A DNA stretch of 53,914 nucleotides from an uncultured bacterium. GTDB taxonomy: Bacteria; Omnitrophota; Gorgyraeia; Ghiorseimicrobiales; Ghiorseimicrobiaceae. The DNA lies in the NCBI GenBank assembly GCA_913009335.1, contig CAJVXN010000012.1, positions 1-53,914 on the forward strand, in the 5' to 3' direction. Positions within the stretch are counted from its first letter, which is position 1. Each line of letters begins with the position of its first letter. The notes under the pieces were generated by a model. The model was not told where the DNA came from and did no database searches. It saw nothing but the letters and a program-made list of their open reading frames with translations. This document shows positions 1 to 25,113 of this stretch, piece after piece. Both the position numbers and the translations under genes were made by a program.

Positions 1-3000
1 CCATTAATCTCCTCAAGATAATCCTCCCTGTCCCTGCCAGTCTTTCTTTTTAGCTTCTTTACAAACCATGCCTGCGCGCCGCCTAAACCCATACCTAAGT
101 ATATACCCGGCCCTTTTCTGGAAGAATCTTTGTTGGAGGCAAAAGGCGAAGAAGAAAAGTATTTACTCGGAGATACGCTTATCTGCGGAATTGCGCTAAT
201 CTCAGATGCCTTAACTACTCTATAATTAGCTATTAAATCTTCTCTAGCTAAAGTAACAGGTGTCAGCCTTGTCTGCTTATTGTTTAATCTTAATGCGGTT
301 ATTCCCTTATCATTTACTTTAGTTATGATAATAGGAACCTGTTCTGTTGCAGGCATAAGTATTGTTGCGGATTTAAGCTCTGGGATATTGTTTATTGTTA
401 TAGGCTCGATATTTAATGATTGACTATCCAGACTGATAATAGAGGTAATTTCTTTAAGGGAGCCTACATCTTTGGTTGCGATCGTCTGATCGGCTAAGGC
501 GGGTAAAAGCATCGCAGCCTCAAGCTTCGGAGGAGATGAATCCGTTACTGCCGGGATATCTAACTGCCCAATAATAGGTATGTTTTGTTGTGTGACTATA
601 CCGGAGACAGCGGGTAACTGCATCGGTTCTACTATATTTTGTCCAGGTATAACCATATTCTGTGAATAATTAAAAGTGGTCGGCGCGGAAGAAATATTGC
701 TTGAGACAGGGGAAGAAGAAATGGAAGGCATGCCAATTGCTTCATCTTGCTGTTCTATAAACTGCTTTAACTGAGGATATTCCTCAATCTTGCGTGCTAT
801 AAGCAATAAATCTTTATCCTTTGCATAATCGCTACGGGCAAATTCCGGCATATAGGAAAACTCTACAAGATGTCCAAAGAATTCAATAGCTACGCCGTGA
901 TCAGATTTAATAAGAGGTAATTTTGCTAAATGATCTAAATCGCTCTGCTTCACGCTACCTTTAACAATCAGGCTATTCAACTCCGCCAGCAATGCTTTAT
1001 TTTCTTTTATATTAACATCGAAATGACGGCTATTTTGTATGCGGTCGCGGATATTGATTAAATCTTCTTTCGCCCTATCCAGAGATAACTCAGGAACACT
1101 ACTATCTTTTACTTTATTCACGTAATCTTTTACCGGGTTATCGTAATTAGAGTTATCGACGCTTAACCCTTTATAATCTTTTAATTTCTTTTCAATTGCC
1201 GATATAAGGTTACGATCTTTATATCTACGCGCTATTTTCTGGAAATCCACCAACTGTTTTTTTGTATACCCCGGAGATTGGGTCTCCGCCTTTTCAAGAA
1301 AAGCATGGTGGCCATCATGGACAAGCGCCTTCGCATGATAGCTAGGCGCAGATTCTATTCTATTATCAAGGTATATTTTTCTACCTGGCTCTCTTTCACT
1401 GCCATTTGCTAAAGCCGAAATATAAACACCTTCTTTATAATTAGACATATCATGCGCTGGCGTATCATTATATTTAAGCTCAACATCAGCCCTCTTTAAG
1501 GCTGTCTGCATTTTATTTATAACCAATCCCGCATTCTTAACCTCCGGCCTTGATATCTGGGTAGAATAACCTGTTTCATCCTGAGGATATAAACTAGCGA
1601 AATAATGAGAAGGATATAACCCTCCAAGAGAAGGAATAGACATATTCATCCATTCTTTTTTAAGAGGTGTTGTGCCTTCATTCTTCATCAATGTTGTTCT
1701 TATCTGGTTAGAAATAGTTTTGTAGCTACGTGTGGGAAAAATAAACGCTCTCCTTCTAAATCCTGCTGTTATATCGGAGCCTAAATCTTTCATCGTGGAA
1801 TACCTGCCTGTACTTTCCGCAAAATAATAACTACGCATAATATTGATATAAGAATCTTTTTCCTTAAAAGGTAACTTACCGCTAAACAGCATACTCCTTG
1901 CCAAGTTCCTGGCAGGATTTATTCCTGCCGCTAAAGCATGAATATATGAAACTTCATCCGGAGTAATTATATTGCCCCTTATTTCTTTTTCTAATACGTC
2001 CATGGCGCTAAATGTTGAAGCAAACCATTCAGTAGCATTATATCCCCACATTGCATCGCGGCTTTCTCCTAATGGTACACCTAAAGCCGCACCGAATAAA
2101 TGCCCTAAAATCTCATGACGAAGCTCTAAGCGCCCTACTGAACGTAGGCGCAAACCGTATTCGCCGTCTCTACCCAAAGCGTTTTCTAATCTATTCATGG
2201 GGACCCAAATCTCATACCCCTTACCTTCACTCTCCCGATTAATAAGTTTTACGGTATCTATATCTTGCGGGGCGACCTTAATCGACACAGCTGTCAAAAG
2301 CTTCTCAAATTCTTTCCATCCTTCTTCAAAACTAGCCACCTTTATTTTTTCGGCAATATCAGGAGTCTTCAAAGCAAGTTTATATAGCTTTCTCTGGACT
2401 TTCTGCTGATCAAGAGAGGAGGCGTCAATAGCTATCTGCTTATGCTGCTTTGTAAAATCATCCCGAAGAGTAGAAATCTGCGTAATATTGATACGTGAAG
2501 GCAGTAGGCCTTCGGCTCGAAGCGGCAAAGCAGTATTTATTCTCTCTAATACGGCAATAGTGTCTATCTCTTGGTCATCATAACCATCGATATTTAGGGC
2601 CTTAAATAGCCCTGAAGGATTATCCGCATATTCAAGAATCTTACTTTCCTCTAATCCCAAATGAGGATACTTTTGTATATTAGCCTTAAGGGTGGCAAGG
2701 TGAGGGATAATCTGCGGAGCTTGTATAAGCATAGATTCATCTTTTCTGTTTATTGCGTGATTAATAAATCTGCTGGCCAAATCATAGTAATCTCTTTTAT
2801 ATACAGACAGTGTTGTATCGTATTTTTTATCTTCTGCCTCATATTTTAACTGAAAAGTATCAAAAACCTCTTGGATATAAGAAAATCCTCTTTCTTTTAT
2901 CTCATCTTCTGCCTTAAGACGGTAATACCACTGCTGAGGAGATATTTGTAATTTTTCAATTTTGCCGATAGCGAGAAAATAAGCCTGATGAGAAGTAATC

Positions 3001-6000
3001 GGGTTATTAACCAAAATATCGAAATGCATCCTATTTAAATATTCCCGCAGTCTATTGTTATAATTCTCTATATCTTTTAAACGCGGCTCTGCTTCCTCAA
3101 TACCCGCCAAAGAAACAAAAGCAGACTCTCTGGCATTACGTAATACCTTGCTATAAAAACTACCGGCCTGCTTAGCCTCACTTCCCAATATAGAAGAAAT
3201 AGTCTGATACAATTGCTTAGATACGCCTATTTTAAATAACAGTTTACCTTTATTATATTCCGGATACCTCTGAGCGGAATTTTGCGATATTAAATCTTGA
3301 TTAGAATTATAGGCGTTGAGATAATGCCCCCACTCACTAAATTCCATACCGCCGACAAAATCTAATGCCTTATCAACTTTTTCATTGAATTCGACATGCA
3401 TACTTGCCGCCTCTTTAAGAATATCATTCTGGATTTTCAGTAAAGCATCTTTGGCAAAACTTGTAATATAAGCATCGAATTTATCTTTATCCGCTATTTT
3501 AAAGATTTGGTTTATAAAATGCGCCATTATTTCCTTATTCTGTTTGCCTTGAGGATAAATAGCTGTAAAAAGAGCCGTAAACTTATCAAAATCTTTTTCT
3601 TCTATCGCTTTTTTACTGCCGGCTAAAACATTAATAAGAGAAACTGTGCTGTTTTGAGGCACATTGTATAATGCTTGCTTAATTTGTTTGATACGATATT
3701 CGTCCTGAGTAGTATTGGCGGGCGGTTTAATAGAAGCAATTTGCTGTAACTCCTGCCATTTACCGGAAAAATCCACTTTATTTTTTCTACCCATAATCTC
3801 ACTAAATAGCTGTATCTTTCGCGCGGGGCTGGTTGACTCATGATATTCCGCAACCTTACCAAAAGAGGGTTCTTTACCCAAAGAGCTAAAAAAATCATAG
3901 ACTTTATTTAATTCATATGTAAGTGATAATTTATCATCCTGATATCCGGATTTAAATGTAGTCTCTAAAGAATGTCTAAACGGCATTTTTTCTGAAGCGC
4001 TAAATTTTTTATAGAACGAACCGAATGCGCTAAACGGCCGCAATAAATTTAATCCTTTGGTTGCAAATTTGCTTTGCTCATTCCATTTGGTAAGCACTTT
4101 CGTATTAGTAAGACGCATAGCAAAAATATAATTTTTAAGAAGCCCATCATCAGCATAAGAATTAATCGACTTATTCAAAAATCCTTCCATATCGCTTACT
4201 ATTTGGGGCATCTTATTATTATTCCAGAAGTGCAGATTATTTTTATTTATTGCGCCCAGAGTATAGCGGCTATATAGTGAATTCGGGCTAATCATTTGAG
4301 ATAATACTCTTAGGCTCATATAACCATCATATTTTGTGGGGTTAACCATCATGCTCGTAGAAATATTCTGCGAACCCTTATCGCGATAAGAAAAAGCAAA
4401 TCTTCTTGCAAAAGATATAGGATGAAGCCCGGCGGCATTTAACCCCAAATACCTCTGAAGCAAGACATCATCTCTTTGTACGCTATAAGGAATATTCTTA
4501 ACATACTCTTGACTCTCTCCTCCTACCACGCTCTCGACCTGAAGTTTTCTGGCAACCATCAAAGAAAGCCGATTATAATCCATAGAAGGATTGATGCTTA
4601 ATACTAACGCATCTTTTAAATCTCCTTGCTGGATAGTGCTGAGATTCACACCCGCATCTTTAACGGCAATATCTACAGCGCTTTTCAAAGAAGATGCATT
4701 ATTTAAAATATTGATATCCGATTGTGTATTTATGTTATTGACTGTAGGCTCTATAAGTGCAACAGCAGAAGTAAAGGCATCAAAGAAATTATTATTCGGC
4801 GTGATGATCATCGACTGTTGCGGCATCGAAGAACTCTGCGGCAATGCCATAATAGTGCCTAGTGTATTGTATACTGCGGGGAAGAAATTATAAGAAGTGT
4901 AGCCATCGGTATCCCGCAATAAAGCTTCACGTGCGCCGATAGATAATTCAACGCCGTTATCCCGCAGGATACCGACAAATTTATCCACGCCCTTACGTAC
5001 CTGCTGACTCTCCTTGACTAATTTTTCGGAAAGATTGGCTGATGTTCTTATTGTAGGAACCAGCACTTTTTCAGCCAATGATAAACCAACTTCTACCACA
5101 TCATCTATTTTGCTCATACTAGAAATCGTCATGGGCGGCGCTTTACCATCTTGCTGGCTATGCGCTTGCTCTGTCTTACCAAGCCTGCTGTCAAATTTCT
5201 CTTCCCATTTATCCCAGTCTCTTAGCTGAAAATAAGTATCCATTCTCATACGCATTGCTTTATCTGAACGAAACGGTGAATTATCAGAAAACATCTTCAA
5301 CTTAGAAAGCGTAGACTCATAATTCATTTTCTTATCGGCAATGTTTCGTGAAATTCCGCCTACAGTATCATAAAGATTTTTTATCCGCGAATGGGTGCTT
5401 TCTAATGCCTGGCGCGCCATATCCTTAGGATAAACAGGGCGCATAAATGCTGTTGAGGCATAGAGTTCAGAGTTTCTATCCAAGACTACCTCTTTATATA
5501 CCTTATTTACAAATTCTCTCTGTTGGGCATCCCCAAATCTATCCACATAATCCATAAACCTCTCAAAAGGCTTCCTGATATAATTATCTTCCATTATCCT
5601 TTGAAACATTCTATACGCGTGATGCCCCCGGTTTATTTCTTCACGCACATAAAGATTAAGCAGCGCCGCATCCGGGGCGCTAAGATACTCAGGCTTATCC
5701 ATCCTTTTTAATAAGGGTTTGATATCAGAGAATCTCTCTTGTTTCTGCCATCTTTTCTTTAGCGTGTTTGCCAGAGGAGCATTATCTTTAAGGAATTTAT
5801 TTACAGAAGAACGATTATAGAAGAAATTAACAGTGTCACTCTTTCTCTCACCCCTATTAATACGCCTCAAGCCTTGCAGGGTAGTAGTTAAATCAAACTT
5901 ATCGACATCGGCAAAGAATAAATCTACCCCCTGACGGACATTAATACCCTCGCTTCCTAGCTCTGTAACGACTATTATCTCATTCTTCTTAAAGCCGTCT

Positions 6001-9000
6001 TCATGCTTTACCCTGCTTGCTAGTTCTTTCTTTCTTACCGGTGTAGTAGAGATATCATAAATATTTTTATTTTTTAAAGGAACACCTACTTCCCTAAATG
6101 CCTCTTTTAGGCGCGGCAGATTTTCTGAACTTACCAACACAAAAGCACCCTTATTGCTATCTCGCATTGCTGTTTTGATTCCACTGGCCATCTGCTGGAA
6201 TACATTACCAATTACTAACTGTTCATTAAGACTTCCTATTTTCTTCCCTGCTTCAAAAATATCAAGTCTGCCGCCTACATTCCTTAACTCCACCTGACCC
6301 CCGATAGAATCCACATCCATACCGTTAAATAGCTTTATTAGCTCCTTATACGGCTGCATTGTTCCGGAAATAGAAGTCTTTCTTCCTCCTATCTGGGTAA
6401 TTGCCCTTAAGGCATCGGCAGAAATATCTATCTGGCTTCCTACCCGAGAATTGGCAAAGTCAATTTTTTCCGCCCAGCTACTACCCCACTTATCCGCTGC
6501 CTTTGCCTGTTTATAGGCAGCCGCATACATCAAAGCAGCATCATGCTGAATCAAATCCGGTTCCTTGCCGGCGAACTTATTTCCTACTACCACTCTTCTA
6601 CCTGCAAAAGCAATAACATCAGGAGAAAGAAGACCACGCACCATACTAACTATCTCTCCGTCGCCCAATAAAGGATCCCGTAAAGTGGACCTTATCTGCT
6701 CCTTAGCTGCCGACGTCAGATGAATCATCCCCTCAGGATCTTTCCAATACCCGGCCTCTCTTCTATCTTTTGAATTACGGGTAATACTGCTTGTATCTTG
6801 CATTAAGTCGGCCTGAGCTAAAGTTATTTCTTTAAGATTAGGCAGAATATCATTTTCAATTCTTTCTACATGCTCCCTGTATTTAAAATGGGCCGGATAA
6901 AGATTTTTATCTCCGGTACCCACAATTGCTTCCTGTTGATTAATAAATACATTCTGAACCTCATCAATTATGCTTAAATTACTCTTTGTTTCAAGATCAG
7001 ATAGTAAAGATCTTACCCTCTCGCCTTCAATGCCAGAATACCTTCTCCAGTTAAATAAATGCGAAAAACCCTGTAGGCTTCCCACAACTATTGTGTCACT
7101 AGAGAAAAGCATATCTCTTAATAAAGAAGTCGGTATATGTGAAGCAATCGCTGAGTCTATGTCTTTTACCTTCAAACCAAAAACCTCTGCAAAAGGCGCG
7201 ATCTCTTTTATTGTACCGCTTATCAAGGTAGGGTTCTTGGTAAAATAGAATGAAGCATTATTATCTTTATGAATAAGCTTGTCGGTCATCAGAGCAAGCC
7301 CGGCCGGTAATGTTTTTCCAGCGCCCATAGCTGCCTCAAGGTTTGCACCTTCAAACATCTTAAGTATATTCTCTGTGCTCTGTATCGAACTCTTTAACCC
7401 ACCCTTGCGTATCTTTAAAACTCGATGCGTGAGCTCTGCCATCTGGCCGATTTTTTGAGAACGGGTAATCTTATTATCATTTATTATTGTATTGACTATC
7501 GGCTCTATTATCGGCCGCATATCTTTAACTTCTTTCACAGAACGTAATTGAGACATTGCAAAATCACTAATTCTATAATTATCCGCGGCTAGCTTAGCTT
7601 CTGTAAATTTAAACTCTCTATTAAAAGAATTATCCTTAACCTTATTTACGCTCTCTATCTTAATATCTATCTTCCTATCGGCTTGCATTAAAAGGTGTTG
7701 ATAAGACTTCCAGCTCTCGATTTTTTTATCAGTAGTAGTCGCATCAATAAATCTATCACGCGCACTAATTAATTGTTTCTGTAACGCTTTCGTTGACCTG
7801 ATACTGCGCTGATGCGGAGTAGAAACATAATCGCCCAACAAATGAATATCCTGATTGCGTATCCTGTTATCGCGATGCGCATTTAATGCCTCCTGTTTAA
7901 TATTAAGCTCACCTAATCTGCCCTGTAATTGACGGTATGTCTTATAAATAGTCTGGCCGTCTTTTGAACCTGTATAATAACTCAGTTTTGCCCGCGCGAT
8001 ATCTCCGCCAATCCCTGGATTATCCATATTTTTCACCTGTTGCCTGATATCGCTTACAACGGAAATCACCTCTGATGCTTTCTGATAAGAAGAAAATTGC
8101 TTATCTTTTATCCGCGTAACCTCCGGTTGCATATCCAGGAATAACTCTTTAGCCTGATTTAATCTTCCCGCGTCATCAGTTCTTATCTTATTTATCCTTG
8201 CTTCAACTTCATTCCAAGACTTGCGGTCAAAAACCATCTTAATCATCTCCGAGCCTAAAGCATCTTTTTTATCAGACGGCGCCTCTGACACTAAGTTATT
8301 CCGCACAAAGGAAGTAAAATCATTCATCTTATTTATAAACTTTCTTCCCTCTTTACCGTATTGTGCTTCTAAATAAGTATCCATTGTTTTTAAGGCTGCC
8401 TCGGTATTTTTAAAATCTATGCCGCCATTTGCATCTATAGCATCCCTAACTATAACCAATGCCTCTACACGATCAAAAGAAAGCTCCGAAGGAATCTTTA
8501 TCTGCTTAAGTAATTTTTTCTCTCCCAGGAATAAATCCTCTGTGCGGGACTTTTCTACCAAATCCCATAAAGTTGCTTTTTGCCTGTTCAAACTTCCTAC
8601 TCCCCGAATAAACTCCCTGGCATGCTCTTTTATATCCATATTGTCTGTTGAGCGGCTGATAACGCTTCCAATAACCGACTCCCATCTATCTTTTATGCCG
8701 TCTCTTACCCCAAAAGAAGAAAAGCTAAAATCACTTTCTTTCCCGTTTATGCTTTCTGTCAAAGTAAAATTATCTTTTTCCATGACCTCGGTCCATTTTT
8801 CCGGTTGAGCCATAACAAGAGGAACCAATGTTTTACCTAACGCATCTTTTAGCTTATGATACTCAATTTTGCCTCCCTTATAATCTCCCACAATATTACG
8901 AACGTCTATTAAGTCTGATCTCTTTCCTTTATTGCTATTAAGCGCTATTTCTTTATTCTCAATCATTTTATTAAGATCGCTGCGGTCTTTTAAAGAAAGC

Positions 9001-12000
9001 GAGGACATCTTAGAAGAAATTGCCATTGTATCAACAAAAGGCATAAGGCTGCCAGGAAGGGTTTTAGTCTTTACGTGAGGAGAAGCATTGCTGATTAAAG
9101 AGGCGGTATTTTGAAAAAGTCCGGCCAGGGCTTTAAAATCGGAGGCGATTTTCGAATCTTTGTGCAATATATCTTGTGCCGCACTAAAACTCTGATAATT
9201 ATCAAAATCAAGGCTTCTGGCTACTTCGTCTTTTACTATATCGCTTTGATAAAAATCTTTGGGAGGAGAAATCTTTTGGAGCTTCCCTTTGTTTTTGAAT
9301 ATAGCCTGGCTTCTCTTATGAAGCTTTTTAGCTAGCCCTGTAAAATTATTTGTATCAAAAGTTTTACTCGCAAGGACATCTGTTGTGGCTTTATTGTATT
9401 CTTTAATTCCGGGAGGAGTATTAATTTTATCCCCCATCAATTCCCATGCCTTACGGTCAATCTCGCTTAATGTAGCATTGAAAATTTGCTTACCGACTTC
9501 CTCGCCTTTTAGTTGTTCATACTTGGCTATGTCCCCTATTTCAGAGATACGGAAAGCATCAGCTGCCTTAGAAGGCAAGCTATCAATAATTTTATTTCTT
9601 AGCATCTTAGTAAATGATACCGCATCAACCATCTTCTTAGAAGTAATGGAATAACGAATGCTGCGGCTTACAGAAGGCGTAAAATTAAATTGCACGTCAA
9701 TAAGAGAGGAAATCTTGTTTACATCAAATCCTTCGCCGAAATGTTTCTCTGCTGCCTGATTTAATCTTTTTTCTAGCCTATTTTCTATTCTTTGGCCTCT
9801 GTCCTTTCTTGCGCCTTTTATGCCTTTAGGAGTATTTTGTATGCCGGAAAGATTTTCTCTTTCTATCAATACATTTCTTACTGCCTTATTTATATGCGCT
9901 ATACCTACATCATTACCCCTGCCTGCAATCTGTTTAGCGCGTTTAAACATTTCTTTTCGCAAACCCTGGCCGGTTTTCCCGGCAAGGTGTACCACTTTTT
10001 GCTGCATCTGATATAAATTATCTCCTACTGCTGATTTAATTACCTTGGTGAATTCCCTATCCGATAATTTAAAAGAATTCTCCATCAGCTCCCGCGGGCT
10101 CATCTTGGTATCCCGGATAAACTTAAGAGAAGCTGCTGCTGCAGATTTATTGCCTGTTCGATATTCTGTGACCAGATGCGCTAGATCACGTCCTGCCTCA
10201 GCAGACGGATTACGCAAGGCAAACAAAGCAAGCCAAGGAACAACCTCTGTCTGGAATTTAGAAAATCCTAAATTTTCTGTGTTCTTTAAGCCGTATTTGT
10301 CTTTCAGCTCTAACTTAAGTACAGCGTCATAAATTCTTAGCGCTGAATCTGCTGCGCCCACCACAATAGGCACCTTAACCATCATATTAGAAGACCAATT
10401 ACCTACACCACTTAATAAACCTGCTGTCTTATCAGGCAATACCATTCTGCTTGTAACCTGCGCAGGCTTAGACATACCCCTGCGGGATAAAAAGGAAGAA
10501 ATTTTCCTTGCAGGAGCATTAATTGCTTCTATTAATCTTGTAGAAAACGGTTTTTCCGCCCATTTTAAAGCAATATTCTCAAACATAGACGCTTGATGCG
10601 ACTTGGATATTTTTGATAATCCCCAGCGGCCTATCGTTTCAGTTCTTGCTGCTACCTTCGAGAGAGGAAGCTTATATTTAGTTGCTTGAGCTAACGGAAT
10701 CAAAGGCCCTATCTTAGCGCCTGTAGCAGGCGCCTCTACCATCTGCATCAGCGTTTGTTTTATAAATAAATTACTTTCAAATGGAGTCATGGCTCCTGTT
10801 TCATCTCTTAGATAAAAATAATCCCGCCAGTTCTGAGGACTAAATGCTTTATCTAACACTTCCTTATCTTTGAGCCAATCTATAACCTTTCCGCTGGTAA
10901 AAGAACTATCCAAATAATCTATGGTGGCCAGTGTCGCTCCCTGCAGGCCAAGCTGAGCTGATCCCATTGCCGCGCTTACTGCCGGCCATTCCATAGCCTT
11001 AACTATGCTCTCTGCGGCCAACCAGTCTATGCCTGAATATTTAGTCTTTCCTATTCCGGGAAGAGGTATCGCTCCAAAAAGCTTTACTTCCTTCGCATAT
11101 CGTTCTCCTCCCGATAAAACTTTCATGTTGCTACGCAAATTCCTTGCCAATCCTCCTGCCCACCATAAAGATACAGCTCCTGTTGCGCCGTGAGTAAAGA
11201 ATGAATTCCATATTTGAGCATTACTCTTTCCGTCAAAATACGATCCTGTTGCGCCGGATACTCCGCCTACAACAAATCCTGTTGTTAACCTCCTACCTAT
11301 GCCCCATTTAGAAACTCTACTTGTCTCCATGGCTCCCGGAGTCATTTTATCCAGTCTTTTTTCTGCCCATTTAGAAATTCTTCCTAAATTCCTGCTTTTT
11401 AGCCAGGTTGAAATTGCGCCACTTTTTCCCAATGCGTATTTACCAAAAATGGCATAAGTTGCACCTTGCGAATATGTAGACCACGATGTTAAGGCATCCC
11501 TAAACGATGAACCCCATAGCGAAAATTTATCGCCCACAGACATTGACTCATTGAGGCCATTATAAAAATTCCCCACTGTGTTTATTGTAAGGCTTGCTCC
11601 CATGCCACCGGCTGTATAGTGAGTAAAAGGAGATTTAATAATATTTGCTGTAACCTTTGCGGTCTTAGGAGAAATACCTTCAATTCTCTTATAAACTCTT
11701 TGGCTAATATTAGTCAAATTTTTTGTCTTTCCTGCTATAGCTGCTAATCCTCCAAAACCTACGGCCCAAGGTAAATTCTCAGGCGTATGAGACACCCAAG
11801 AGGTTGCCACGTCTCTAAAACCTTCGGCTTTTCCAGTAGCGGCATCTACTGCGGTACTAACATTATTAAATATAATTAATTCGCGGGCTGTATTGGCAGC
11901 AAATTGTGTACCAATTCCTCTTCCTGCTGCCTTATTAGTTAATGCTCGTCCAATTGGCGACATAACCGCACCCATTGTAAATACTGCGGCTCTAGTATCC

Positions 12001-15000
12001 CAACCAAGGCCTCCTTCTTTAAAATAATGCCATCCGTCACTTACGCTATTTACATTTTCCTTATTAGTGGCTACGTTCCAAACTCTTGCACCCGTTTCAG
12101 CTGCTGCAACCCAACCAGTTCCAGCTGCTGCCCTTCTTGCTATAAGGTTTGCTGTAGGGCTAACTATTACCCGACCAACTGTCACTGCGCCTGTTTCACC
12201 AATCACCGGCCTGCTCACCTTATTTGCCCAATCTCCTAATCGCTGACTAATTAATTTTACTCCCTCTTTTTTACCGCTAGAAGAAGCACCTCCAAGAAAA
12301 ACCTTTTGACCTATACTTTTAATAATCTTACCACCAATCCACACACCTAATACATCAAGGGCTATGTCTAAACCTATACCAGGCAAAGCCTCCCCTGGAC
12401 TTGAGACTTCAATCCTGTTGTAAACCTGATAGGGATCTGCATGTTTTGTATTCTCTATCAGCTTCTCTAGTCTGCCCGGGGAATTTCCATCTATAGCATT
12501 CTCTAAACTATCTAAACCTCCAACAAAAAGCATAGCTCCTACCAGGGCTCCCCCGTCTAATAAGTCCTCACCATTTCTTATCATACCGCCTACTATCAAG
12601 TCACTTCCCATTTGACCAAGAATAGGAGACCTCTGCCTTGCTTCATTCTGCCATTCTAATCCTTTACTTACCCAGGATGACTTTCCAGCCCGTAAATTGT
12701 CCAATTCTGTTTCCTTCCTTCTTCTCTCTTTTACGGGAAACGCCTGTTTTTTTTCTTTTAGTTTATCGTGATATCTTCCAAATAATGAGGTATTATCTGA
12801 AGCCGTTCCGGCATCACGTATCTTATAATACTCCTGTAGTTCCTCAGTATTTCCAAAAAGTTCGGCTTCTCTTATTTGTATCTCTTTCTTCTCATCGGTG
12901 CTTAAGCCAAAAGTCTCTCCTAGGAACTTAGTAATTGTGCCTGTCGCACCCTTGAAACCATCGTATGTCCCCTCTAAGAATCCATATCCAGCTACTTCTT
13001 CATCCTTAAAATCTGTTACTGACTGGATAGAACCTGCGAAGTTATGACCTAAGGTTGTTGTGTATTTTAAGTCTTTCCCTTTTAATTGGATAAGTTCGCT
13101 GCCTTTGGTGGCGGTAAGCGGAGTTTGGACACCGGTTGTTGATTTAGGCTTTGTTGTATCGATTTTTGTAGGAGCGGTAACTTTAGTAATCTCCTGGCTA
13201 TTAGCCAGCATTAATGTGCCGCTTGCCATAGGATCAGTTAATCTAAATATTGCCTGGCCTCTAGCATCTATACCTGAGTTAGCATCCTGCCAATTAGCAA
13301 GACCGCCTACCTTATTATCTAAGGCGATATGATCAAAACCTGTTAGAGTTGTCATCTTGCCATCTGCATCCCAGGATACTTCTCTACCTTTAGTTAGAGC
13401 AAATGCATTGCTAAAATCTTCTATATCTGTGCCGCCTTTTCTTTTCTGGGCAATACCTTGATGCTGGAAGGTGATGTCGCGAGAGTCAAAAGCACGGGCC
13501 CCCCCTGCAATATCAAGCGGTATTCCTCTAGAATTAAACTTAATAAGAGAATTTCCGGTTGTGTAGATATTGCCGTTAGCAATCCCATTACTACCCTGCT
13601 GAATTGCATAAGTAAATTCCTGATCATTCCCTCCCTGCCAATGTATAGTAGAATCCTTATACATGGCTGAAAAATCTAAACCTCCTACATCTCCCTGTAT
13701 TTTAGAAGTAGCCGGCGTGCCTAATACCAGAGGTAACGTAATCTCTTTACCACCAGTGGCATTAGCGCTATAAAGGAAGCTATCCGGTCTTATAGCTGCA
13801 ACATCCAGTTCATTAGAAAAATTCGGGATGACATTAATATTATCTCCTATATCTATATCTGTCGGTTTATTAACTGCCTCGGGCGCATTTACGAGATTAG
13901 GATGAAGTAATATCTCAGGCGTTTTAATTACAACATCAGTTCCAGAAACTTCTAATGCAGCCATTACTTTTAATGTATCTATTAGTTGCCCGCTAGATGC
14001 CCTCTGCTCAAATAGCGCATCTGTACTGCCTAATAACGCTACGCTATCCTGAGTCCATCCTGATGTTTCTGTTCCGCTAAAAGAGGTTCTTATACCGTCG
14101 TCACTCTTTACGCTACTAAGAAGTTTTTCTACTACATCTAATCTCGGATTTAAGGTTTTAAAAACATCTTTAAAATCATGCGCTATTCTGCCGGCATGTG
14201 TAATTGTAGAGGATATAGGCTTTACTCCTTCTTGAGTCACTTCAATAAAGCCTTTATTAAATTCGTCTCCACTATATTCATATTTTAAGAAAGAGGCTCT
14301 ATCAGAAGCCTGGGCAGGAACATAGTGCCTTGCGCCAAGATTAAACATCATCGGCTGCATATTGCGGGCATCAACCTCCATCAACCCTGAAGCGATAGAC
14401 GAATCATACAAAGTAAGTTTTGTGCTGATGCCTGAAGAAGTAAGTTCAGTAAAGGTATCTGTAAATAGCGGTGTGCTCTCTCCTCTGCCCCCGCCATTTA
14501 TATTACTTGTCCAGAGTAATTTACCCGGCTCTGACTTTAATACCAATGTTGCAGCGCCGTCTTGATATTTCCCTAGATTTCTGAAGCCATAGTTAGTAAT
14601 TTTAGATTTTGTTTCTGTTAAAATATTACCGGAGCTATCTAAAACGTTGCCGGCGATAAAGCTTTTGTTCTTATCTAAAACAAATGCTTCACCAGACGCC
14701 CAATTAACATTTTCTGAACTAATGTAATCCTGGATAGGAATAATACTGCCGTCTTTTAATTTATTCGAAGTCCCTACTACCCATCCGGTTGATTCCATAT
14801 GGGCAACACCCTTAAATACTTTATTGTTGGCCAGCTTCTTCTCTACCCCGCCATCTCGGAGCAAATCTTTCTGCGCCCCACCAAGCAAAGGAGCAAACTT
14901 GCTATCTTTAACTACAAAACTTGCCCAGGTATTGTTAATTGCATTATAAGAACCTATCTGAGCAAATTTATTAGTCTCCCCGCCCATAACCACTTCAACG

Positions 15001-18000
15001 AAATTAGAAACTCCTCCTAAAGCCTCAACTGAAGATTCAAGATTCTGAGGCACGCGAATCAAATCATTTTCCATAGCCACCGGCAAAGCACCATTAACAT
15101 AAACTAAACCGCCGCCGTTTAAATCAATGCCTAATTTATCATCATAATTTAAAAGCGCATAATTTCTCTTCCCATCGGTTTGCGCTAAAAATGGAAGGCT
15201 GGCTGACTGCGGTATAATGCCTCCCGGAAGACCCGAGCTAATCTGAGAAGCATAATAACCTTTTGGATCAAAGAAAATACCCCTATCGACAACATCACCG
15301 CTGACTGTTTTATTGTATACGCCGTGTTCATTCATTATACCTTTGCCGACCATTAAACCGGTCTTTGAGTCTACATTTAACTCGCCATTAACAATACCTC
15401 TGCTAAAATTTATTGCATTTGCTCCCTCTGTGCCAAGAACATGATTAAGATTTATACCAAATTTTCCAGTCAGCTTATCTGTTATATTCATATCAGTTAT
15501 TCTTGATACGCCGATACCACCACTTGTTTCAAAAAATTCAGATGAGGCCAATCCTTTTGACTTTATATTTGGCGAACCAAGTAAAGATGTATCTGTTGTT
15601 TCTACTGTCCAGATTTCGTTTTCTCCGGCAGGGCTATAGACTAACCCAGAGGCTCCACCTGAAAGAGCCTTAAATTGATCTATTGATCCAACAAAGCTAT
15701 AATGAGAATTACCGCTCAGTTTACCAGGTTTCCATAATTGATTAGCGCGGCCAAAAATACCAAAGGCTGTATCTATGTTTCCCGCTCGAATATCATTTGC
15801 AATCTGCGGGCTGTATTTTTCCATTACTTGCGCAAAGTGTTCAGTTTCTATACCAGCATTATCAAGTCCCGGGCCATCAAGGATCCATTTACCTGACCAT
15901 CTATGCCATGTGGAACGAAACTCGCCTATCTCTCCCGATTCTGATACCTCGGCTATTTCAATATCTCCTTCATTAATACGTGAAGCAAAACTTTTTATTG
16001 GATTACCATCGGCATCTTCAATAAACGTATATTCTATCTTCCCTGGATCACTATTCCAAACGGTCGCTTTAATACCATTAGGACCCATACCACCAACCGA
16101 TGGCTGCTTATTCATAGTACGATTGATAACACTATTTAACACAACTCCCCAGTTCTCTGTTGCTCCATAATGAAAATCATCACCAAAGTGTTGACCTAAA
16201 GCAACAGTAATGCCAATATTAGGATTTGCCGCATCCATAGTAGTTTTCATAACGCTAGAGATATGATTGTAATAATTAATTGTATCCGATAAATCTTTAT
16301 TGCCACCGAAGGAGATAGAACCTGCCGTAACCTCATCAACTCTATTAGCTACTGACGCAAAAAACGATTCCTTGCTACCATCAGGATTACTACTTCCACC
16401 ATCCAGACCATATCTTACCATTGACGATGCCCATAAAGTCGCATTAGAAGCAGTAACCGGATCCCAACCTTCTTTTATGAGATAATTTCGTAAATAAGCA
16501 TTGCCCATAGAAAGTGCTCCTTCTTTTAGACCTGCTATAAGCATCTCTGGCATTCCCATGCCAGGTTGAGACATATAGGTACTACCGAGAGTTTGAAATG
16601 CTATGCCTAAACCAGAATAAGAAATGGAATAATCTATCATCTTGTCCTCGACATAATCATCAAAATCACTTCCGCTCAGCCCCTGTTCTTCTGCTTCCTC
16701 TCTAAACTTCTTTTCCTTTTGAGAGGTATAATAATTTTCTACAAGAGTACCCGCGGATTTAGCCGCCCAATATTTAAATACTTTTCCAGCATTTGACTTC
16801 ATAAACGCTGAATCACCCTTTAATACGCCCGTACTGCCTATAACTGCTCCGGCGCCTGCACCGATTGCGGCATATTCCCATTGATCATCCTTTTCCCCGG
16901 CTGCGGCAAAATAACCTAACGCGCCGCCAACTAAACCACCTTTAACACTATCACTACCAAAGAACTTCCCTACTTTTGTTTGTTTTAATGAATCTAACGC
17001 GCCGGAACCATAAAGTGCGCCACCGGCTGCACCGATAGCCGCATAAGTTGCTTTATCTTCCCCGCCTAAGGCATAGCCTAACCCGCCGCCTAACGCTGCA
17101 GAGACAAGAGATTTTTTACTTACGAGATTAGAGAATTCAAAACCAGAACTTACTGGTTTAGTCTTATCAGCTCCGCCTTTAATAATAGAATCTAATGCAC
17201 CGGAACCGTAAAGTGCGCCGCCTGTGGCGCCGATAGCCGCATAGGTCAAGCCGTTATCTTTGCCGCCTAAGGCATAGCCTAATCCGCCGCCGATGACTGC
17301 CCCTCCAAGAGATTTGTAATCGCTCCAAAGTTTTGATAAAAGGCTTGGAGAGGCTTTTTTCCAGGCTTCAAAGGTTTTAAACTTTGTTGAATCCAGCTTA
17401 CTAAAATCTTTCTGCTCTAACAGATACCCTGCTCCCGCGCCTAATCCTGCGCCTAAAACCGCATAGGTTGCTTTATCTTCTCCGCCTAAGGCATAGCCCA
17501 GGCCGCCGCCGACAAGACCGCCAACAATAGGAGATTTGTAATCGCTCCAAAGTTTTGTTTGTTTTAATGAATCTAATGCACCGGAACCGTAAAGCGCGCC
17601 GCCTGTTGCGCCAATTGCGGCATAGGTCAAGCCGTTATCTTTACCGCCTAAAGCATAGCCTAATCCGCCGCCGATGCCTGCGCCCATAATAGTTTTCCCC
17701 AGTGTAGTACTGAAAAAACCAGGGGAAGAACCCAACGGAATATGAATCCCTGTGGGGCCAAAAGTACCCTGAATTTCCATAGTATCTTTAACTTTTGCTA
17801 TATCTTTTGCTACATCTTTTACTACAATTCTTCCAAGTCTTTGCATATTCGCAGCCTTAGCCCAAGAAGCTTTTATTGGATTACCAGCATCGTCTACCGT
17901 AGCAAGGTTCAAATCAAGAGTAACACTACCATCAGCGGTTTCATAATACTGCTTCTGCATCGTATCTATAGTACCAATTAAGCTAGAGCCGGTATACTGG

Positions 18001-19379
18001 AGTGCAAGACCTGCGCCTAAAGAAGCTATAGTTGCATAACCCTTGGTTTTTGGATCATTTTTATCATAAATGGATAAATATGTTTTTGTAGCCGTTACCT
18101 GGGCCAAACCTGAATAACCAGCCGTGATAATAGAACGACCAAGTCCATTGGTTGATATTCCTCCCGCAAGAGAGCCGCCTATACCACCCCAGAGAGCCCC
18201 TACCATAGCAGCATGCTCAGAGGACCAGTCTTTTTCCGCAGCCACACCTGCAATATAAGACTGTATTGCATATCCTGTCATAAAACTACGAAAACCAGTA
18301 CCCGCGGATTGTAAAGTCTGAGTACTCATTAAGGCACTGGGCAAATTACTGAATGTATTGCCTATGCTAGTCATGATGTTATTGTTATCCCAACCCTTAG
18401 CAGCCGTTCCCAATGAACTCCCAACCACATTTAATCCAACATTCATCACCACAGACATGAGTAAATTTTTCTCATATCTCTTCCAGGCACCAGCATTTGG
18501 ATATGCCTGTTTTCTGCCGCGTCCCTTTATGTTTATAATTCGTTTATCCGGTAATCTTTGGTATTTGTTATTTGGTAATTGATTATTATTAATTAGAATA
18601 TAACCGGTAAATTGATCAAGGAATTTATTAACAGGTAGAAAAGTATCCCCTTTGTCAAAAAAGTAGTGGACTTTTTCTGTATCAACACTAGTAACAAGAA
18701 CAAAATGCCCCCTGTCTGTAACATGTTCGGGGGAAAGATGGGCAATGAACGGAGTCTTTATATTATTTAAATCCTGGGCTCGAGAATCAGCAGGTAACTC
18801 TAGAGCATCTAAATCAAGATCAAAATACTTCGCTGTTTTTTGTAAGGCATACAAAGAATTATCAAAACTATTACCATTTAAACCTGTCCAATGATCTGAA
18901 TAGATGTTTCCGGCTAAAACATCAATCATAATCAGCACTGTGGACAATTCTCCAATGCTAACTTCTTTATTTTCATATAGTAACAAATTATATAAAGTAT
19001 ATGCCGCACAAGGCACTGTTTCTGTTTCCGGTCTCTCTAACCAACTACGAAGCTGTTTTAATTCTTTTTTAGTAATCCTTAACCCTTGCCCCTTACCACT
19101 TGCATCTATATTGAGGCCAGGCTTAATTTGAATCTGCTGTAGAGGCTTATCAGCAAGAGGTTTTAAGAAACGATAAGCAGATTGGGCTACCGCCTTGTTA
19201 AACATCGCCGGATTAGAAGCAATGTTTGAAGGCGAAGAAGGTAATAAAACCGTGTTGTTCTGCCAAAGAATAGCAGGGTTGTATTCAATTGCCCATGCGG
19301 CCTGCTGAGGCACAAAAATAGCCACTATAAGCAAGGCAATGATTTTAACCCAGAGTTGCCCGCGCCAATTAACTAACAT
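1..19379 (-). CDS. Giant secreted multidomain protein, 3' end beyond window (at least 6,459 residues)
   Basis: A single frame stays open from ATG 19379 to the left edge with no in-frame stop. Residues 1-36 are a signal peptide (basic start, hydrophobic IIALLIVAIF, likely cleavage after AWA). Residues about 110-250 resemble peptidase C39: Cys124 in VPCAAY, His225 in GHFVLV, Asp242. Residues about 560-850 are glycine-rich repeats. About 960-2130 is beta-rich, with haemagglutinin-like stretches. About 2130-3000 has many small hydrophobic segments, and 3000-4000 is helical. Residues about 4018-4510 look like an SF2/SecA-like ATPase: Walker A GAGKT near 4020, DEVQ near 4139, QGLRRINRG near 4500. 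Residues 4550-5750 are helical; HEILGH lies near 5750. No strong ribosome site precedes the ATG; a 9-codon leader ORF overlaps it. Giant genes are reported in Omnitrophota. The function is unknown; a surface or host-contact protein is inferred. Confidence 0.93.
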   Translation of the reverse strand, partial: MLVNWRGQLWVKIIALLIVAIFVPQQAAWAIEYNPAILWQNNTVLLPSSPSNIASNPAMFNKAVAQSAYRFLKPLADKPLQQIQIKPGLNIDASGKGQGLRITKKELKQLRSWLERPETETVPCAAYTLYNLLLYENKEVSIGELSTVLIMIDVLAGNIYSDHWTGLNGNSFDNSLYALQKTAKYFDLDLDALELPADSRAQDLNNIKTPFIAHLSPEHVTDRGHFVLVTSVDTEKVHYFFDKGDTFLPVNKFLDQFTGYILINNNQLPNNKYQRLPDKRIINIKGRGRKQAYPNAGAWKRYEKNLLMSVVMNVGLNVVGSSLGTAAKGWDNNNIMTSIGNTFSNLPSALMSTQTLQSAGTGFRSFMTGYAIQSYIAGVAAEKDWSSEHAAMVGALWGGIGGSLAGGISTNGLGRSIITAGYSGLAQVTATKTYLSIYDKNDPKTKGYATIASLGAGLALQYTGSSLIGTIDTMQKQYYETADGSVTLDLNLATVDDAGNPIKASWAKAANMQRLGRIVVKDVAKDIAKVKDTMEIQGTFGPTGIHIPLGSSPGFFSTTLGKTIMGAGIGGGLGYALGGKDNGLTYAAIGATGGALYGSGALDSLKQTKLWSDYKSPIVGGLVGGGLGYALGGEDKATYAVLGAGLGAGAGYLLEQKDFSKLDSTKFKTFEAWKKASPSLLSKLWSDYKSLGGAVIGGGLGYALGGKDNGLTYAAIGATGGALYGSGALDSIIKGGADKTKPVSSGFEFSNLVSKKSLVSAALGGGLGYALGGEDKATYAAIGAAGGALYGSGALDSLKQTKVGKFFGSDSVKGGLVGGALGYFAAAGEKDDQWEYAAIGAGAGAVIGSTGVLKGDSAFMKSNAGKVFKYWAAKSAGTLVENYYTSQKEKKFREEAEEQGLSGSDFDDYVEDKMIDYSISYSGLGIAFQTLGSTYMSQPGMGMPEMLIAGLKEGALSMGNAYLRNYLIKEGWDPVTASNATLWASSMVRYGLDGGSSNPDGSKESFFASVANRVDEVTAGSISFGGNKDLSDTINYYNHISSVMKTTMDAANPNIGITVALGQHFGDDFHYGATENWGVVLNSVINRTMNKQPSVGGMGPNGIKATVWNSDPGKIEYTFIEDADGNPIKSFASRINEGDIEIAEVSESGEIGEFRSTWHRWSGKWILDGPGLDNAGIETEHFAQVMEKYSPQIANDIRAGNIDTAFGIFGRANQLWKPGKLSGNSHYSFVGSIDQFKALSGGASGLVYSPAGENEIWTVETTDTSLLGSPNIKSKGLASSEFFETSGGIGVSRITDMNITDKLTGKFGINLNHVLGTEGANAINFSRGIVNGELNVDSKTGLMVGKGIMNEHGVYNKTVSGDVVDRGIFFDPKGYYASQISSGLPGGIIPQSASLPFLAQTDGKRNYALLNYDDKLGIDLNGGGLVYVNGALPVAMENDLIRVPQNLESSVEALGGVSNFVEVVMGGETNKFAQIGSYNAINNTWASFVVKDSKFAPLLGGAQKDLLRDGGVEKKLANNKVFKGVAHMESTGWVVGTSNKLKDGSIIPIQDYISSENVNWASGEAFVLDKNKSFIAGNVLDSSGNILTETKSKITNYGFRNLGKYQDGAATLVLKSEPGKLLWTSNINGGGRGESTPLFTDTFTELTSSGISTKLTLYDSSIASGLMEVDARNMQPMMFNLGARHYVPAQASDRASFLKYEYSGDEFNKGFIEVTQEGVKPISSTITHAGRIAHDFKDVFKTLNPRLDVVEKLLSSVKSDDGIRTSFSGTETSGWTQDSVALLGSTDALFEQRASSGQLIDTLKVMAALEVSGTDVVIKTPEILLHPNLVNAPEAVNKPTDIDIGDNINVIPNFSNELDVAAIRPDSFLYSANATGGKEITLPLVLGTPATSKIQGDVGGLDFSAMYKDSTIHWQGGNDQEFTYAIQQGSNGIANGNIYTTGNSLIKFNSRGIPLDIAGGARAFDSRDITFQHQGIAQKRKGGTDIEDFSNAFALTKGREVSWDADGKMTTLTGFDHIALDNKVGGLANWQDANSGIDARGQAIFRLTDPMASGTLMLANSQEITKVTAPTKIDTTKPKSTTGVQTPLTATKGSELIQLKGKDLKYTTTLGHNFAGSIQSVTDFKDEEVAGYGFLEGTYDGFKGATGTITKFLGETFGLSTDEKKEIQIREAELFGNTEELQEYYKIRDAGTASDNTSLFGRYHDKLKEKKQAFPVKERRRKETELDNLRAGKSSWVSKGLEWQNEARQRSPILGQMGSDLIVGGMIRNGEDLLDGGALVGAMLFVGGLDSLENAIDGNSPGRLEKLIENTKHADPYQVYNRIEVSSPGEALPGIGLDIALDVLGVWIGGKIIKSIGQKVFLGGASSSGKKEGVKLISQRLGDWANKVSRPVIGETGAVTVGRVIVSPTANLIARRAAAGTGWVAAAETGARVWNVATNKENVNSVSDGWHYFKEGGLGWDTRAAVFTMGAVMSPIGRALTNKAAGRGIGTQFAANTARELIIFNNVSTAVDAATGKAEGFRDVATSWVSHTPENLPWAVGFGGLAAIAGKTKNLTNISQRVYKRIEGISPKTAKVTANIIKSPFTHYTAGGMGASLTINTVGNFYNGLNESMSVGDKFSLWGSSFRDALTSWSTYSQGATYAIFGKYALGKSGAISTWLKSRNLGRISKWAEKRLDKMTPGAMETSRVSKWGIGRRLTTGFVVGGVSGATGSYFDGKSNAQIWNSFFTHGATGAVSLWWAGGLARNLRSNMKVLSGGERYAKEVKLFGAIPLPGIGKTKYSGIDWLAAESIVKAMEWPAVSAAMGSAQLGLQGATLATIDYLDSSFTSGKVIDWLKDKEVLDKAFSPQNWRDYFYLRDETGAMTPFESNLFIKQTLMQMVEAPATGAKIGPLIPLAQATKYKLPLSKVAARTETIGRWGLSKISKSHQASMFENIALKWAEKPFSTRLIEAINAPARKISSFLSRRGMSKPAQVTSRMVLPDKTAGLLSGVGNWSSNMMVKVPIVVGAADSALRIYDAVLKLELKDKYGLKNTENLGFSKFQTEVVPWLALFALRNPSAEAGRDLAHLVTEYRTGNKSAAAASLKFIRDTKMSPRELMENSFKLSDREFTKVIKSAVGDNLYQMQQKVVHLAGKTGQGLRKEMFKRAKQIAGRGNDVGIAHINKAVRNVLIERENLSGIQNTPKGIKGARKDRGQRIENRLEKRLNQAAEKHFGEGFDVNKISSLIDVQFNFTPSVSRSIRYSITSKKMVDAVSFTKMLRNKIIDSLPSKAADAFRISEIGDIAKYEQLKGEEVGKQIFNATLSEIDRKAWELMGDKINTPPGIKEYNKATTDVLASKTFDTNNFTGLAKKLHKRSQAIFKNKGKLQKISPPKDFYQSDIVKDEVARSLDFDNYQSFSAAQDILHKDSKIASDFKALAGLFQNTASLISNASPHVKTKTLPGSLMPFVDTMAISSKMSSLSLKDRSDLNKMIENKEIALNSNKGKRSDLIDVRNIVGDYKGGKIEYHKLKDALGKTLVPLVMAQPEKWTEVMEKDNFTLTESINGKESDFSFSSFGVRDGIKDRWESVIGSVISRSTDNMDIKEHAREFIRGVGSLNRQKATLWDLVEKSRTEDLFLGEKKLLKQIKIPSELSFDRVEALVIVRDAIDANGGIDFKNTEAALKTMDTYLEAQYGKEGRKFINKMNDFTSFVRNNLVSEAPSDKKDALGSEMIKMVFDRKSWNEVEARINKIRTDDAGRLNQAKELFLDMQPEVTRIKDKQFSSYQKASEVISVVSDIRQQVKNMDNPGIGGDIARAKLSYYTGSKDGQTIYKTYRQLQGRLGELNIKQEALNAHRDNRIRNQDIHLLGDYVSTPHQRSIRSTKALQKQLISARDRFIDATTTDKKIESWKSYQHLLMQADRKIDIKIESVNKVKDNSFNREFKFTEAKLAADNYRISDFAMSQLRSVKEVKDMRPIIEPIVNTIINDNKITRSQKIGQMAELTHRVLKIRKGGLKSSIQSTENILKMFEGANLEAAMGAGKTLPAGLALMTDKLIHKDNNASFYFTKNPTLISGTIKEIAPFAEVFGLKVKDIDSAIASHIPTSLLRDMLFSSDTIVVGSLQGFSHLFNWRRYSGIEGERVRSLLSDLETKSNLSIIDEVQNVFINQQEAIVGTGDKNLYPAHFKYREHVERIENDILPNLKEITLAQADLMQDTSSITRNSKDRREAGYWKDPEGMIHLTSAAKEQIRSTLRDPLLGDGEIVSMVRGLLSPDVIAFAGRRVVVGNKFAGKEPDLIQHDAALMYAAAYKQAKAADKWGSSWAEKIDFANSRVGSQIDISADALRAITQIGGRKTSISGTMQPYKELIKLFNGMDVDSIGGQVELRNVGGRLDIFEAGKKIGSLNEQLVIGNVFQQMASGIKTAMRDSNKGAFVLVSSENLPRLKEAFREVGVPLKNKNIYDISTTPVRKKELASRVKHEDGFKKNEIIVVTELGSEGINVRQGVDLFFADVDKFDLTTTLQGLRRINRGERKSDTVNFFYNRSSVNKFLKDNAPLANTLKKRWQKQERFSDIKPLLKRMDKPEYLSAPDAALLNLYVREEINRGHHAYRMFQRIMEDNYIRKPFERFMDYVDRFGDAQQREFVNKVYKEVVLDRNSELYASTAFMRPVYPKDMARQALESTHSRIKNLYDTVGGISRNIADKKMNYESTLSKLKMFSDNSPFRSDKAMRMRMDTYFQLRDWDKWEEKFDSRLGKTEQAHSQQDGKAPPMTISSMSKIDDVVEVGLSLAEKVLVPTIRTSANLSEKLVKESQQVRKGVDKFVGILRDNGVELSIGAREALLRDTDGYTSYNFFPAVYNTLGTIMALPQSSSMPQQSMIITPNNNFFDAFTSAVALIEPTVNNINTQSDINILNNASSLKSAVDIAVKDAGVNLSTIQQGDLKDALVLSINPSMDYNRLSLMVARKLQVESVVGGESQEYVKNIPYSVQRDDVLLQRYLGLNAAGLHPISFARRFAFSYRDKGSQNISTSMMVNPTKYDGYMSLRVLSQMISPNSLYSRYTLGAINKNNLHFWNNNKMPQIVSDMEGFLNKSINSYADDGLLKNYIFAMRLTNTKVLTKWNEQSKFATKGLNLLRPFSAFGSFYKKFSASEKMPFRHSLETTFKSGYQDDKLSLTYELNKVYDFFSSLGKEPSFGKVAEYHESTSPARKIQLFSEIMGRKNKVDFSGKWQELQQIASIKPPANTTQDEYRIKQIKQALYNVPQNSTVSLINVLAGSKKAIEEKDFDKFTALFTAIYPQGKQNKEIMAHFINQIFKIADKDKFDAYITSFAKDALLKIQNDILKEAASMHVEFNEKVDKALDFVGGMEFSEWGHYLNAYNSNQDLISQNSAQRYPEYNKGKLLFKIGVSKQLYQTISSILGSEAKQAGSFYSKVLRNARESAFVSLAGIEEAEPRLKDIENYNNRLREYLNRMHFDILVNNPITSHQAYFLAIGKIEKLQISPQQWYYRLKAEDEIKERGFSYIQEVFDTFQLKYEAEDKKYDTTLSVYKRDYYDLASRFINHAINRKDESMLIQAPQIIPHLATLKANIQKYPHLGLEESKILEYADNPSGLFKALNIDGYDDQEIDTIAVLERINTALPLRAEGLLPSRINITQISTLRDDFTKQHKQIAIDASSLDQQKVQRKLYKLALKTPDIAEKIKVASFEEGWKEFEKLLTAVSIKVAPQDIDTVKLINRESEGKGYEIWVPMNRLENALGRDGEYGLRLRSVGRLELRHEILGHLFGAALGVPLGESRDAMWGYNATEWFASTFSAMDVLEKEIRGNIITPDEVSYIHALAAGINPARNLARSMLFSGKLPFKEKDSYINIMRSYYFAESTGRYSTMKDLGSDITAGFRRRAFIFPTRSYKTISNQIRTTLMKNEGTTPLKKEWMNMSIPSLGGLYPSHYFASLYPQDETGYSTQISRPEVKNAGLVINKMQTALKRADVELKYNDTPAHDMSNYKEGVYISALANGSEREPGRKIYLDNRIESAPSYHAKALVHDGHHAFLEKAETQSPGYTKKQLVDFQKIARRYKDRNLISAIEKKLKDYKGLSVDNSNYDNPVKDYVNKVKDSSVPELSLDRAKEDLINIRDRIQNSRHFDVNIKENKALLAELNSLIVKGSVKQSDLDHLAKLPLIKSDHGVAIEFFGHLVEFSYMPEFARSDYAKDKDLLLIARKIEEYPQLKQFIEQQDEAIGMPSISSSPVSSNISSAPTTFNYSQNMVIPGQNIVEPMQLPAVSGIVTQQNIPIIGQLDIPAVTDSSPPKLEAAMLLPALADQTIATKDVGSLKEITSIISLDSQSLNIEPITINNIPELKSATILMPATEQVPIIITKVNDKGITALRLNNKQTRLTPVTLAREDLIANYRVVKASEISAIPQISVSPSKYFSSSPFASNKDSSRKGPGIYLGMGLGGAQAWFVKKLKRKTGRDREDYLEEIN
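16845..17680 (-). repeat. Degenerate glycine-rich repeats inside the giant gene
   Basis: At least three well-matched units of about 110 bases (near 16985-17096, 17180-17292 and 17562-17672), a half unit near 17440-17516 and a divergent one near 16845-16930. Each encodes a variant of GGGLGYALGGEDKATYAAIG followed by YGSGALDS. Spacing is irregular (about 200 and 380 bases), with unrelated linkers between units. GxxxG spacing and alternating small/hydrophobic residues suggest glycine-zipper hairpins that could insert into or lie along a membrane. The strong DNA-level similarity implies recent amplification compared with the rest of the gene. Confidence 0.85.
18650..19050 (-). other. C39-like cysteine peptidase domain of the giant protein
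   Basis: Domain-level annotation within the giant gene. Cys124 sits at the start of a helix-like segment (CAAYTLYNLLLYE), as in C39 peptidases, where the Cys precedes a leucine-rich helix. His225 lies in RGHFVLVTSVD and Asp242 follows in YFFDKGD, giving Cys-His-Asp in the family order and spacing. Known C39 domains cleave double-glycine leaders inside ABC exporters; here there is no transporter, and the domain directly follows a signal peptide, so it would act outside the cytoplasm. Identification is by motif only. Confidence 0.65.
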
Positions 19380-19406
19380 AGTATACGTTCGCTTTCATCC
19401 GCTGCG

Positions 19407-19445
19407 ATAACCTTACATTTCTACATTGTTGAAATGTAAGGTTAT
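19407..19445 (-). terminator. Long perfect hairpin between the last pilin and the giant gene
   Basis: Two 15-base arms (ATAACCTTACATTTC and its exact complement) enclose a 9-base loop. On the minus strand it lies 73 bases after the last pilin stop and 28 bases before the giant gene ATG. No T-run follows on that strand, so it may be a processing or mRNA-stabilising structure, or a partial terminator that lowers giant-gene expression relative to the pilins, rather than a classical intrinsic terminator. Confidence 0.6.
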
Positions 19446-19518
19446 TTAATGTTTCAGTGTGTATTAACACATATTACGTTCGCCGGATAGGCTACATCCT
19501 CCTTTCTTCAAAGATTTT

Positions 19519-19719
19519 TTAAAACTCATAGACATCTGTTTCCTCCGTATCAAATTGCCTGCCTTCTCCTATGGTATCTGCAGCAGTGCGCCACTTACCC
19601 TGAATAGACCTCTTAAGAAAACCATACATTCCCATAAATGCGGCAACAAGTACAGCAATAAGCACCGCATATTGCAACATCGCCTGCCCTGATAACTTAT
19701 TATTATCTTTTGCTCTCAT
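19519..19719 (-). CDS. Flp-like small pilin (ninth in the locus)
   Basis: 66 residues: short basic leader, then GQAMLQYAVLIAVLVAAF, the hydrophobic N-terminal helix typical of Flp-type pilins, then FLKRSIQGKW, a variant of the KRGxxGR motif shared by its paralogues at 24-26 kb. The usual E5 position is Q (LQY rather than LEY), which in type IV-like pilins affects subunit packing, so it may be a minor or initiating subunit. Its start overlaps the preceding gene by 17 bases, implying translational coupling. It is the last Tad gene before the giant ORF. Confidence 0.8.
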   Translation of the reverse strand: MRAKDNNKLSGQAMLQYAVLIAVLVAAFMGMYGFLKRSIQGKWRTAADTIGEGRQFDTEETDVYEF

Positions 19720-20479: not shown

Positions 20480-20497
20480 CTTTACCACCTCCTATCT

Positions 20498-21991: not shown

Positions 21992-22010
21992 CTTCTCTTC
22001 TCCTTATAGA

Positions 22011-22895: not shown

Positions 22896-22938
22896 CTTCT
22901 ATTCCCTCAAAAACTCTACCCCTTATCTCTAACGGAGT

Positions 22939-24087: not shown

Positions 24088-24112
24088 CTTTACCCCTAGA
24101 TTATTACTTATA

Positions 24113-25104: not shown

Positions 25105-25113
25105 GATATATCC

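Follow-up and report, generated by a model that had tools for sequence, protein, structure and literature searches.

A truncated giant gene behind a Tad pilus locus in an Omnitrophota bacterium, with a predicted C39-type peptidase head and exchangeable modules

The giant proteins of Omnitrophota rank with the largest that have been predicted for any bacterium; earlier descriptions call them poorly conserved and obscure in function. The giant protein of the predatory Candidatus Velamenicoccus archaeovorus, published as 39,678 aa long, has been detected as peptides, about threefold more in attached cells, and the Tad locus of this bacterium has been placed at 12382-29832 of its genome (PMC10066038). 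Open cytoplasmic contact has been seen between predator and prey (PMC13153191). Further giant ORFs of >20 kb are reported from other Omnitrophota, and a surface coat or adhesin role has been proposed for V. archaeovorus and for other members of the phylum (PMC10066038). In the literature that we covered, to which Kizina et al. 2022 and the West-Roberts et al. preprint do not belong and where part of this may be found, there was no earlier report of a protease-fold head with invariant Cys and His, of a single Cys, of a recurring SF2 SecA-like cassette or of an excess of [SN]SP tripeptides.

We analysed a stretch of 53,914 nucleotides (the window), which is contig G000:C12 in full and comes from a bin of 1.88 Mb in 67 contigs. 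On its minus strand, an ORF with 6,459 visible codons (positions 3-19379) starts with an ATG at 19379 and contains no stop. Because the window is the whole contig and the frame is open at its edge, the gene is truncated, its 3' end lying past the contig edge. On sequence comparison, this ORF is a further member of the known, poorly understood V. archaeovorus-type family of Omnitrophota giant proteins. We propose, with a probability of roughly 0.5, that it represents the 5' part of the giant gene closing a Tad (Flp pilus) operon in this Omnitrophota class, whose product would be exported, combine a protease head with exchangeable modules and be used against neighbouring cells.

A scan of 84,980 genomes yielded 80 head loci, nearly all labelled Omnitrophota, and among them was the start of the giant gene of V. 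archaeovorus (L121, NZ_CP019384.1). Read from the closed genome, that gene begins with a GTG at 29826, ends with a stop at 148886 and counts 39,686 codons. The window protein aligns with its product over aa 2-270 only (27% over 282 aa, E 2e-19). Both giants start with a homologous signal peptide and head, follow a Tad locus, are low in Cys and contain enzyme-like modules and [SN]SP linkers, whereas no similarity is detectable past aa 270, the modules differ and the known lengths are 6,459 and 39,686 aa, respectively. Moreover, the visible, truncated window chain has no transmembrane helix, in contrast to 42 reported in the V. archaeovorus giant (23 by hydropathy scan, the first at aa 7120); none was found in two other truncated family members either, so this feature was treated as not defining. 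With the other Omnitrophota giant ORFs (PMC10066038), the window ORF shares the phylum, few annotated domains and a frame cut by the contig edge, as is often the case among them; it probably belongs to their size class of >20 kb as well, with 19,377 bp visible before the contig breaks off. Some of those giants are reported to carry discoidin, laminin-G and dockerin domains, none of which was found in it.

The giant gene is the last visible member of a minus-strand run that holds a Tad/Flp pilus locus, with RcpA secretin, RcpC/CpaB, TadZ, TadA, TadB, TadC and pilins. The run leads from a PpiC/SurA-type foldase lipoprotein (36173-37132) through RcpC/CpaB (35226-36176), an RcpA/CpaC secretin with a C-terminal TonB_C domain (33614-35191; Pfam domains), a TadZ-TadA fusion (31318-33501; AAA_31 and T2SSE), TadB (27368-28270; PF00482) and TadC (26473-27378; PF00482) to Flp/TadE-like pilins and large pseudopilins (22011-26174), which carry N-terminal pilin motifs and have homologues upstream of other giants, followed by a TadE/G-like pseudopilin (20498-21991; PF13400) and a 66-aa Flp-type pilin (19519-19719) directly upstream of the giant gene. 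To score this linkage elsewhere, the window's own proteins were used as queries against the 46 homologous loci whose upstream sequence extends for at least 9 kb. Tad genes lie upstream on the same strand in 45 of them, V. archaeovorus included; TadB or TadC does so in 42 and lies on the opposite strand in none. An independent PF00482 search found the Tad-giant linkage in seven genomes, and in V. archaeovorus the published end of the Tad locus coincides with the start of the giant gene. An earlier note on this DNA had pointed to Omnitrophota, placed the ORF next to a Tad locus and named the V. archaeovorus giant as a known example. Our results confirm the host, the location and a kinship with that giant, which lies in the homologous signal peptide and C39-type head. 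Its impression that the arrangement beside the Tad locus was unrecognised or unusual was not upheld, as a head with Tad genes is the norm in the testable loci; the domain order behind the head differs between genomes. No Tad substrate signal was identified in the giant chain, which counts against our preferred reading.

Three further features of this locus were observed. The fusion of the secretin with TonB_C is unusual. A 531-aa transposase-like gene without a Pfam match lies within the Tad operon (28656-30251). An inverted repeat without a T-run (AACCTTACATTTC/GAAATGTAAGGTT; 19403-19440), lying in the gap that separates the giant ATG from the last Flp gene, is possibly a regulatory or attenuator hairpin.

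The giant chain begins with a Sec-type signal peptide (aa 1-30, MLVNWRGQLWVKIIALLIVAIFVPQQAAWA; 19290-19379, minus strand, like all features of the ORF below), in which F22, P24, Q26 and A30 are conserved across the family. Because the 84,980-genome scan itself searched for the F-P-Q pattern, the F-P-Q-A conservation in the 80 loci is partly circular, and independent support for it comes from outside that scan. The next stretch is a C39-type cysteine-peptidase domain (aa 31-275; 18555-19289) according to profile, predicted fold and Foldseek. Its PF03412 score is 29.2 bits against a curated Pfam cut-off of 22, and among solved double-glycine proteases the head profile matches 6mpz best (2.8e-7). 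The AF2 model of the head reached a pLDDT of 88.6 and was placed by Foldseek onto the peptidase domains of LahT, PCAT1 and ComA (E 2e-6, target TM ~0.7). The catalytic C124 (codon at 19008-19010) is Cys in 80/80 homologues and the catalytic H225 (codon at 18705-18707) is His in all 78 that reach the position, and this conservation is free of the circularity of the search pattern. The third catalytic residue is Asp in most head sequences, at an alignment position slipping by one. Six residues before the Cys, at the oxyanion-hole position, where the local alignment is uncertain, the window head has Glu and the 80 sequences mostly Pro or Glu, with Gln in 3/80. The oxyanion Gln of C39 peptidases appears not to be kept, which counts against our preferred reading. 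Compared with C39 double-glycine peptidases (LahT150 6mpz, PCAT1 7n87, ComA 3k8u), the head is alike in predicted fold, invariant Cys and His and, as far as the slipping alignment shows, a mostly conserved Asp, but differs in extra N-terminal helices and apparently in this Gln; moreover, the named peptidases are cytosolic domains of ABC transporters, whereas here the domain would head an exported giant chain. When a profile was built from the first ~320 residues, it detected the head in 46 of 117 relatives, many in giant frames, with some of the weaker matches spanning it only in part. With a common head whose protease site looks intact and which keeps its place behind a Tad operon, the family gains a definition, a search handle and one testable residue (C124). 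Separately, contig G019:C9 (135,114 bp) can be read from end to end as a single frame of 45,037 codons, which matches the C39 head weakly.

C124 is also the sole Cys in 6,459 residues, against an expectation of 48 derived from neighbouring genes (P ~1e-19). In the 55 homologues whose visible part reaches at least 1,500 residues, Cys amounts to 0.116%, compared with 0.74% in neighbours; other giant-frame contigs from the window's bin show a weaker depletion (0.25-0.50%). By hydropathy, the signal peptide is the only strong hydrophobic helix in the visible chain. The Cys depletion and this lone helix support export of the whole visible stretch; the depletion could also have another cause. Together with the linkers that flank modules, the depletion leads to concrete predictions on export and modularity.

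Behind the head, glycine-zipper repeats (aa ~560-860; 16800-17702) fall below the Pfam cut-off here and above it in the relative G001, and a second family-common block (aa 862-1086; 16122-16796) is 49% identical to G001. Within the family, alignment is restricted to aa 1 to ~670 and to this block. Further along, aa 2348-3145 (9945-12338) match the giant of G046 at 27-30%, and a mosaic cassette at aa 3427-5932 (1584-9101) matches the same giant, which belongs to another family, at 37% and was not found in same-family giants. As judged from these alignments, the parts behind the head have been exchanged between lineages. An HEILGH motif (aa 5755-5760; 2100-2117) aligns with the zincin-type HELGH of the G046 giant, but its one-residue insertion makes zincin-like activity doubtful. 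The visible chain ends in a linker-rich stretch (aa 6215-6459; 3-737) with SSP motifs and the GPGIYLGMGLGGAQAWF motif (GLGGxQAWF pattern at 63-89).

The mosaic cassette holds an SF2 (SecA-like) ATPase at aa ~3950-4560 (5700-7532), with Walker A GAGKT (aa 4019), DEVQ (aa 4139), SGT (aa 4338) and QGLRRINRG (aa 4502). Its profile matched in 9 of 384 genomes at E <= 0.001. Six matches were strong, all of them in long frames (2,689 aa on a short contig, otherwise 6,464-11,919 aa), and the cassette recurs in giant frames of scattered families. With some variation, Walker A and DExx are kept across the set, and so are SGT and the arginine motif in those sequences that are long enough to include them. 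In profile comparison, SecA scored 36 versus 24 for background windows and shuffles, and the six-sequence profile gave P ~0.001 with SecA. Since no Pfam SecA model, SecA_DEAD included, matched the window ATPase, we call it SecA-like rather than SecA. It resembles SecA in its collinear SF2 motifs and in region order in the profile alignment, but lies within a giant, putatively exported chain, and the same genome has its own normal SecA. A single-protein scan of genome contigs with the ATPase found no relatives, a PDB sequence search returned nothing meaningful, and an AlphaFold2 model of the ATPase alone (pLDDT 38) was discarded. The ATPase profile had no match in the V. archaeovorus giant, and the SecA_PP_bind stretch there, which matches only hmm 328-461 of SecA, is not supported as its homologue. 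The signal peptide, C39-like start, glycine-zipper repeats and SF2-like ATPase that the earlier note had read from the letters were thus all recovered, the repeats sub-threshold in the window and the ATPase on the strength of motifs and profile comparison.

On our preferred reading, Sec would carry the giant chain across the inner membrane, and, when another cell is touched, the Tad secretin or pilus would bring it to the surface of the cell. The C39 head would cut a substrate, either the giant chain itself or a Tad partner. The modules behind the head would then act on or inside the neighbouring cell, here the SF2/SecA-like ATPase and the zincin-like stretch and, in relatives, lytic transglycosylase, metallopeptidase, (p)ppGpp-synthetase-like and other enzymes. 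Anatomy, homology, Tad linkage and conserved catalytic residues are computational results; this export route, the protease activity with its substrate, the target and the site of action are what we infer. The peptides of the V. archaeovorus giant, more abundant in attached cells, and the open contact of predator and prey speak for this reading. On the other side, a purely surface role would fit the ATPase poorly because ATP is absent outside the cell, and an injected role is only putative. The broader idea that the whole family is a Tad-dependent contact weapon, in which a protease-headed giant chain delivers lineage-specific, [SN]SP-separated enzymes of intracellular type (ATPase, nucleotide-signalling, methyltransferase, peptidase) into prey, is a tentative one that we consider unlikely.

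The giant might instead stay outside, coating the cell and binding or degrading polysaccharides of other cells, with enzyme-like modules that are structural or act outside. This is the coat or adhesin view already published, and it agrees with the lack of transmembrane helices and the strong Cys depletion in the visible part, with the glycine-rich repeats and with the long unannotated front halves of giants. However, an SF2/SecA-like ATPase with intact motifs and RelA/SpoT, HATPase and methyltransferase modules would be of little use outside the cell, and we regard such a role as possible but somewhat unlikely.

Annotated modules in other giants include SPOR, SLT, HD_4/RelA_SpoT and HATPase as well as M24 and TPR, and the V. 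archaeovorus giant carries M48, SLT, HD_4, response regulator, glycosyltransferases, SecA_PP_bind and more. The [SN]SP tripeptides flank annotated modules and occur in 7-18x excess in the G001 continuation (17 vs 2.3 expected) and in V. archaeovorus (60 vs 3.4); contig C33 of the window's own bin has 22 vs 2.8. Inside soluble Pfam envelopes there are none, against 5.6 expected (P ~0.003; the test is small and post hoc, and the envelopes were hand-counted). This distribution, together with a protease at the head, would suit a polyprotein from which the C39 head, or some other protease, releases the individual enzymes, using [SN]SP linkers or GG motifs as cleavage regions. However, the linkers may be mere flexible spacers, C39 enzymes cleave after GG and not after SSP, and the GLGG motif, the candidate double-glycine site of the giant ORF, occurs in two genomes only, which leaves this reading improbable. 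Among 384 genomes, the GLGGxQAWF-type motif of the window is common to the G001 giant only; with 3 sites in all, it was rejected as a general cleavage site.

The earlier note's very long real ORF is borne out over its 6,459 codons from the ATG. The chance of so long an open frame is ~1e-204 at the base composition of the window, with 514 and 712 stops in the other two frames of the strand. Relatives keep the frame open, with 37% identity across ~2,600 aa in the case of a giant frame from another family, and an N-terminus 41-46% identical to giant frames of the same family. An assembly chimera or a sequencing artefact open by accident, to which many MAG homologues running off contig edges and adapter remnants on other contigs of the bin might point, is already contradicted by these values, by homologues conserved along much of the ORF, by the window itself, in which a search for Illumina adapter sequence found none, and by the comparable frame in the closed V. 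archaeovorus genome. For the leftward extension proposed in the earlier note, overlap and homology searches were run in the bin, and the 3' end of the gene was not reached: no contig end matches the window start by at least 14 bp, and tblastn with 6,000/6,666 residues of the next part of a same-family giant yielded no continuation. Elsewhere in the bin, contigs C46 (4,179 aa) and C33 (6,801 aa) are single giant frames, and so is the start of C20, which reaches a stop after 2,981 aa; all three frames are [SN]SP-rich and may be later parts of the window giant gene. They are richer in Cys than the window ORF and show no overlap that would connect them with the window; they were left out of the ORF length. 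A repeat of ~43 residues (126/129 bases) occurs in both C33 and C20 and could mark an assembly break between them. Peptides typical of Illumina adapter at the ends of G000:C58 (L216) and, at one end, of C33 (L251) reveal untrimmed adapters in the assembly. Finally, G000:C59 (L217; 6,036 bp) consists of one open frame with HEAT repeats, and the 42-bp overlap between the two contig ends points to a circle or a collapsed long repeat.
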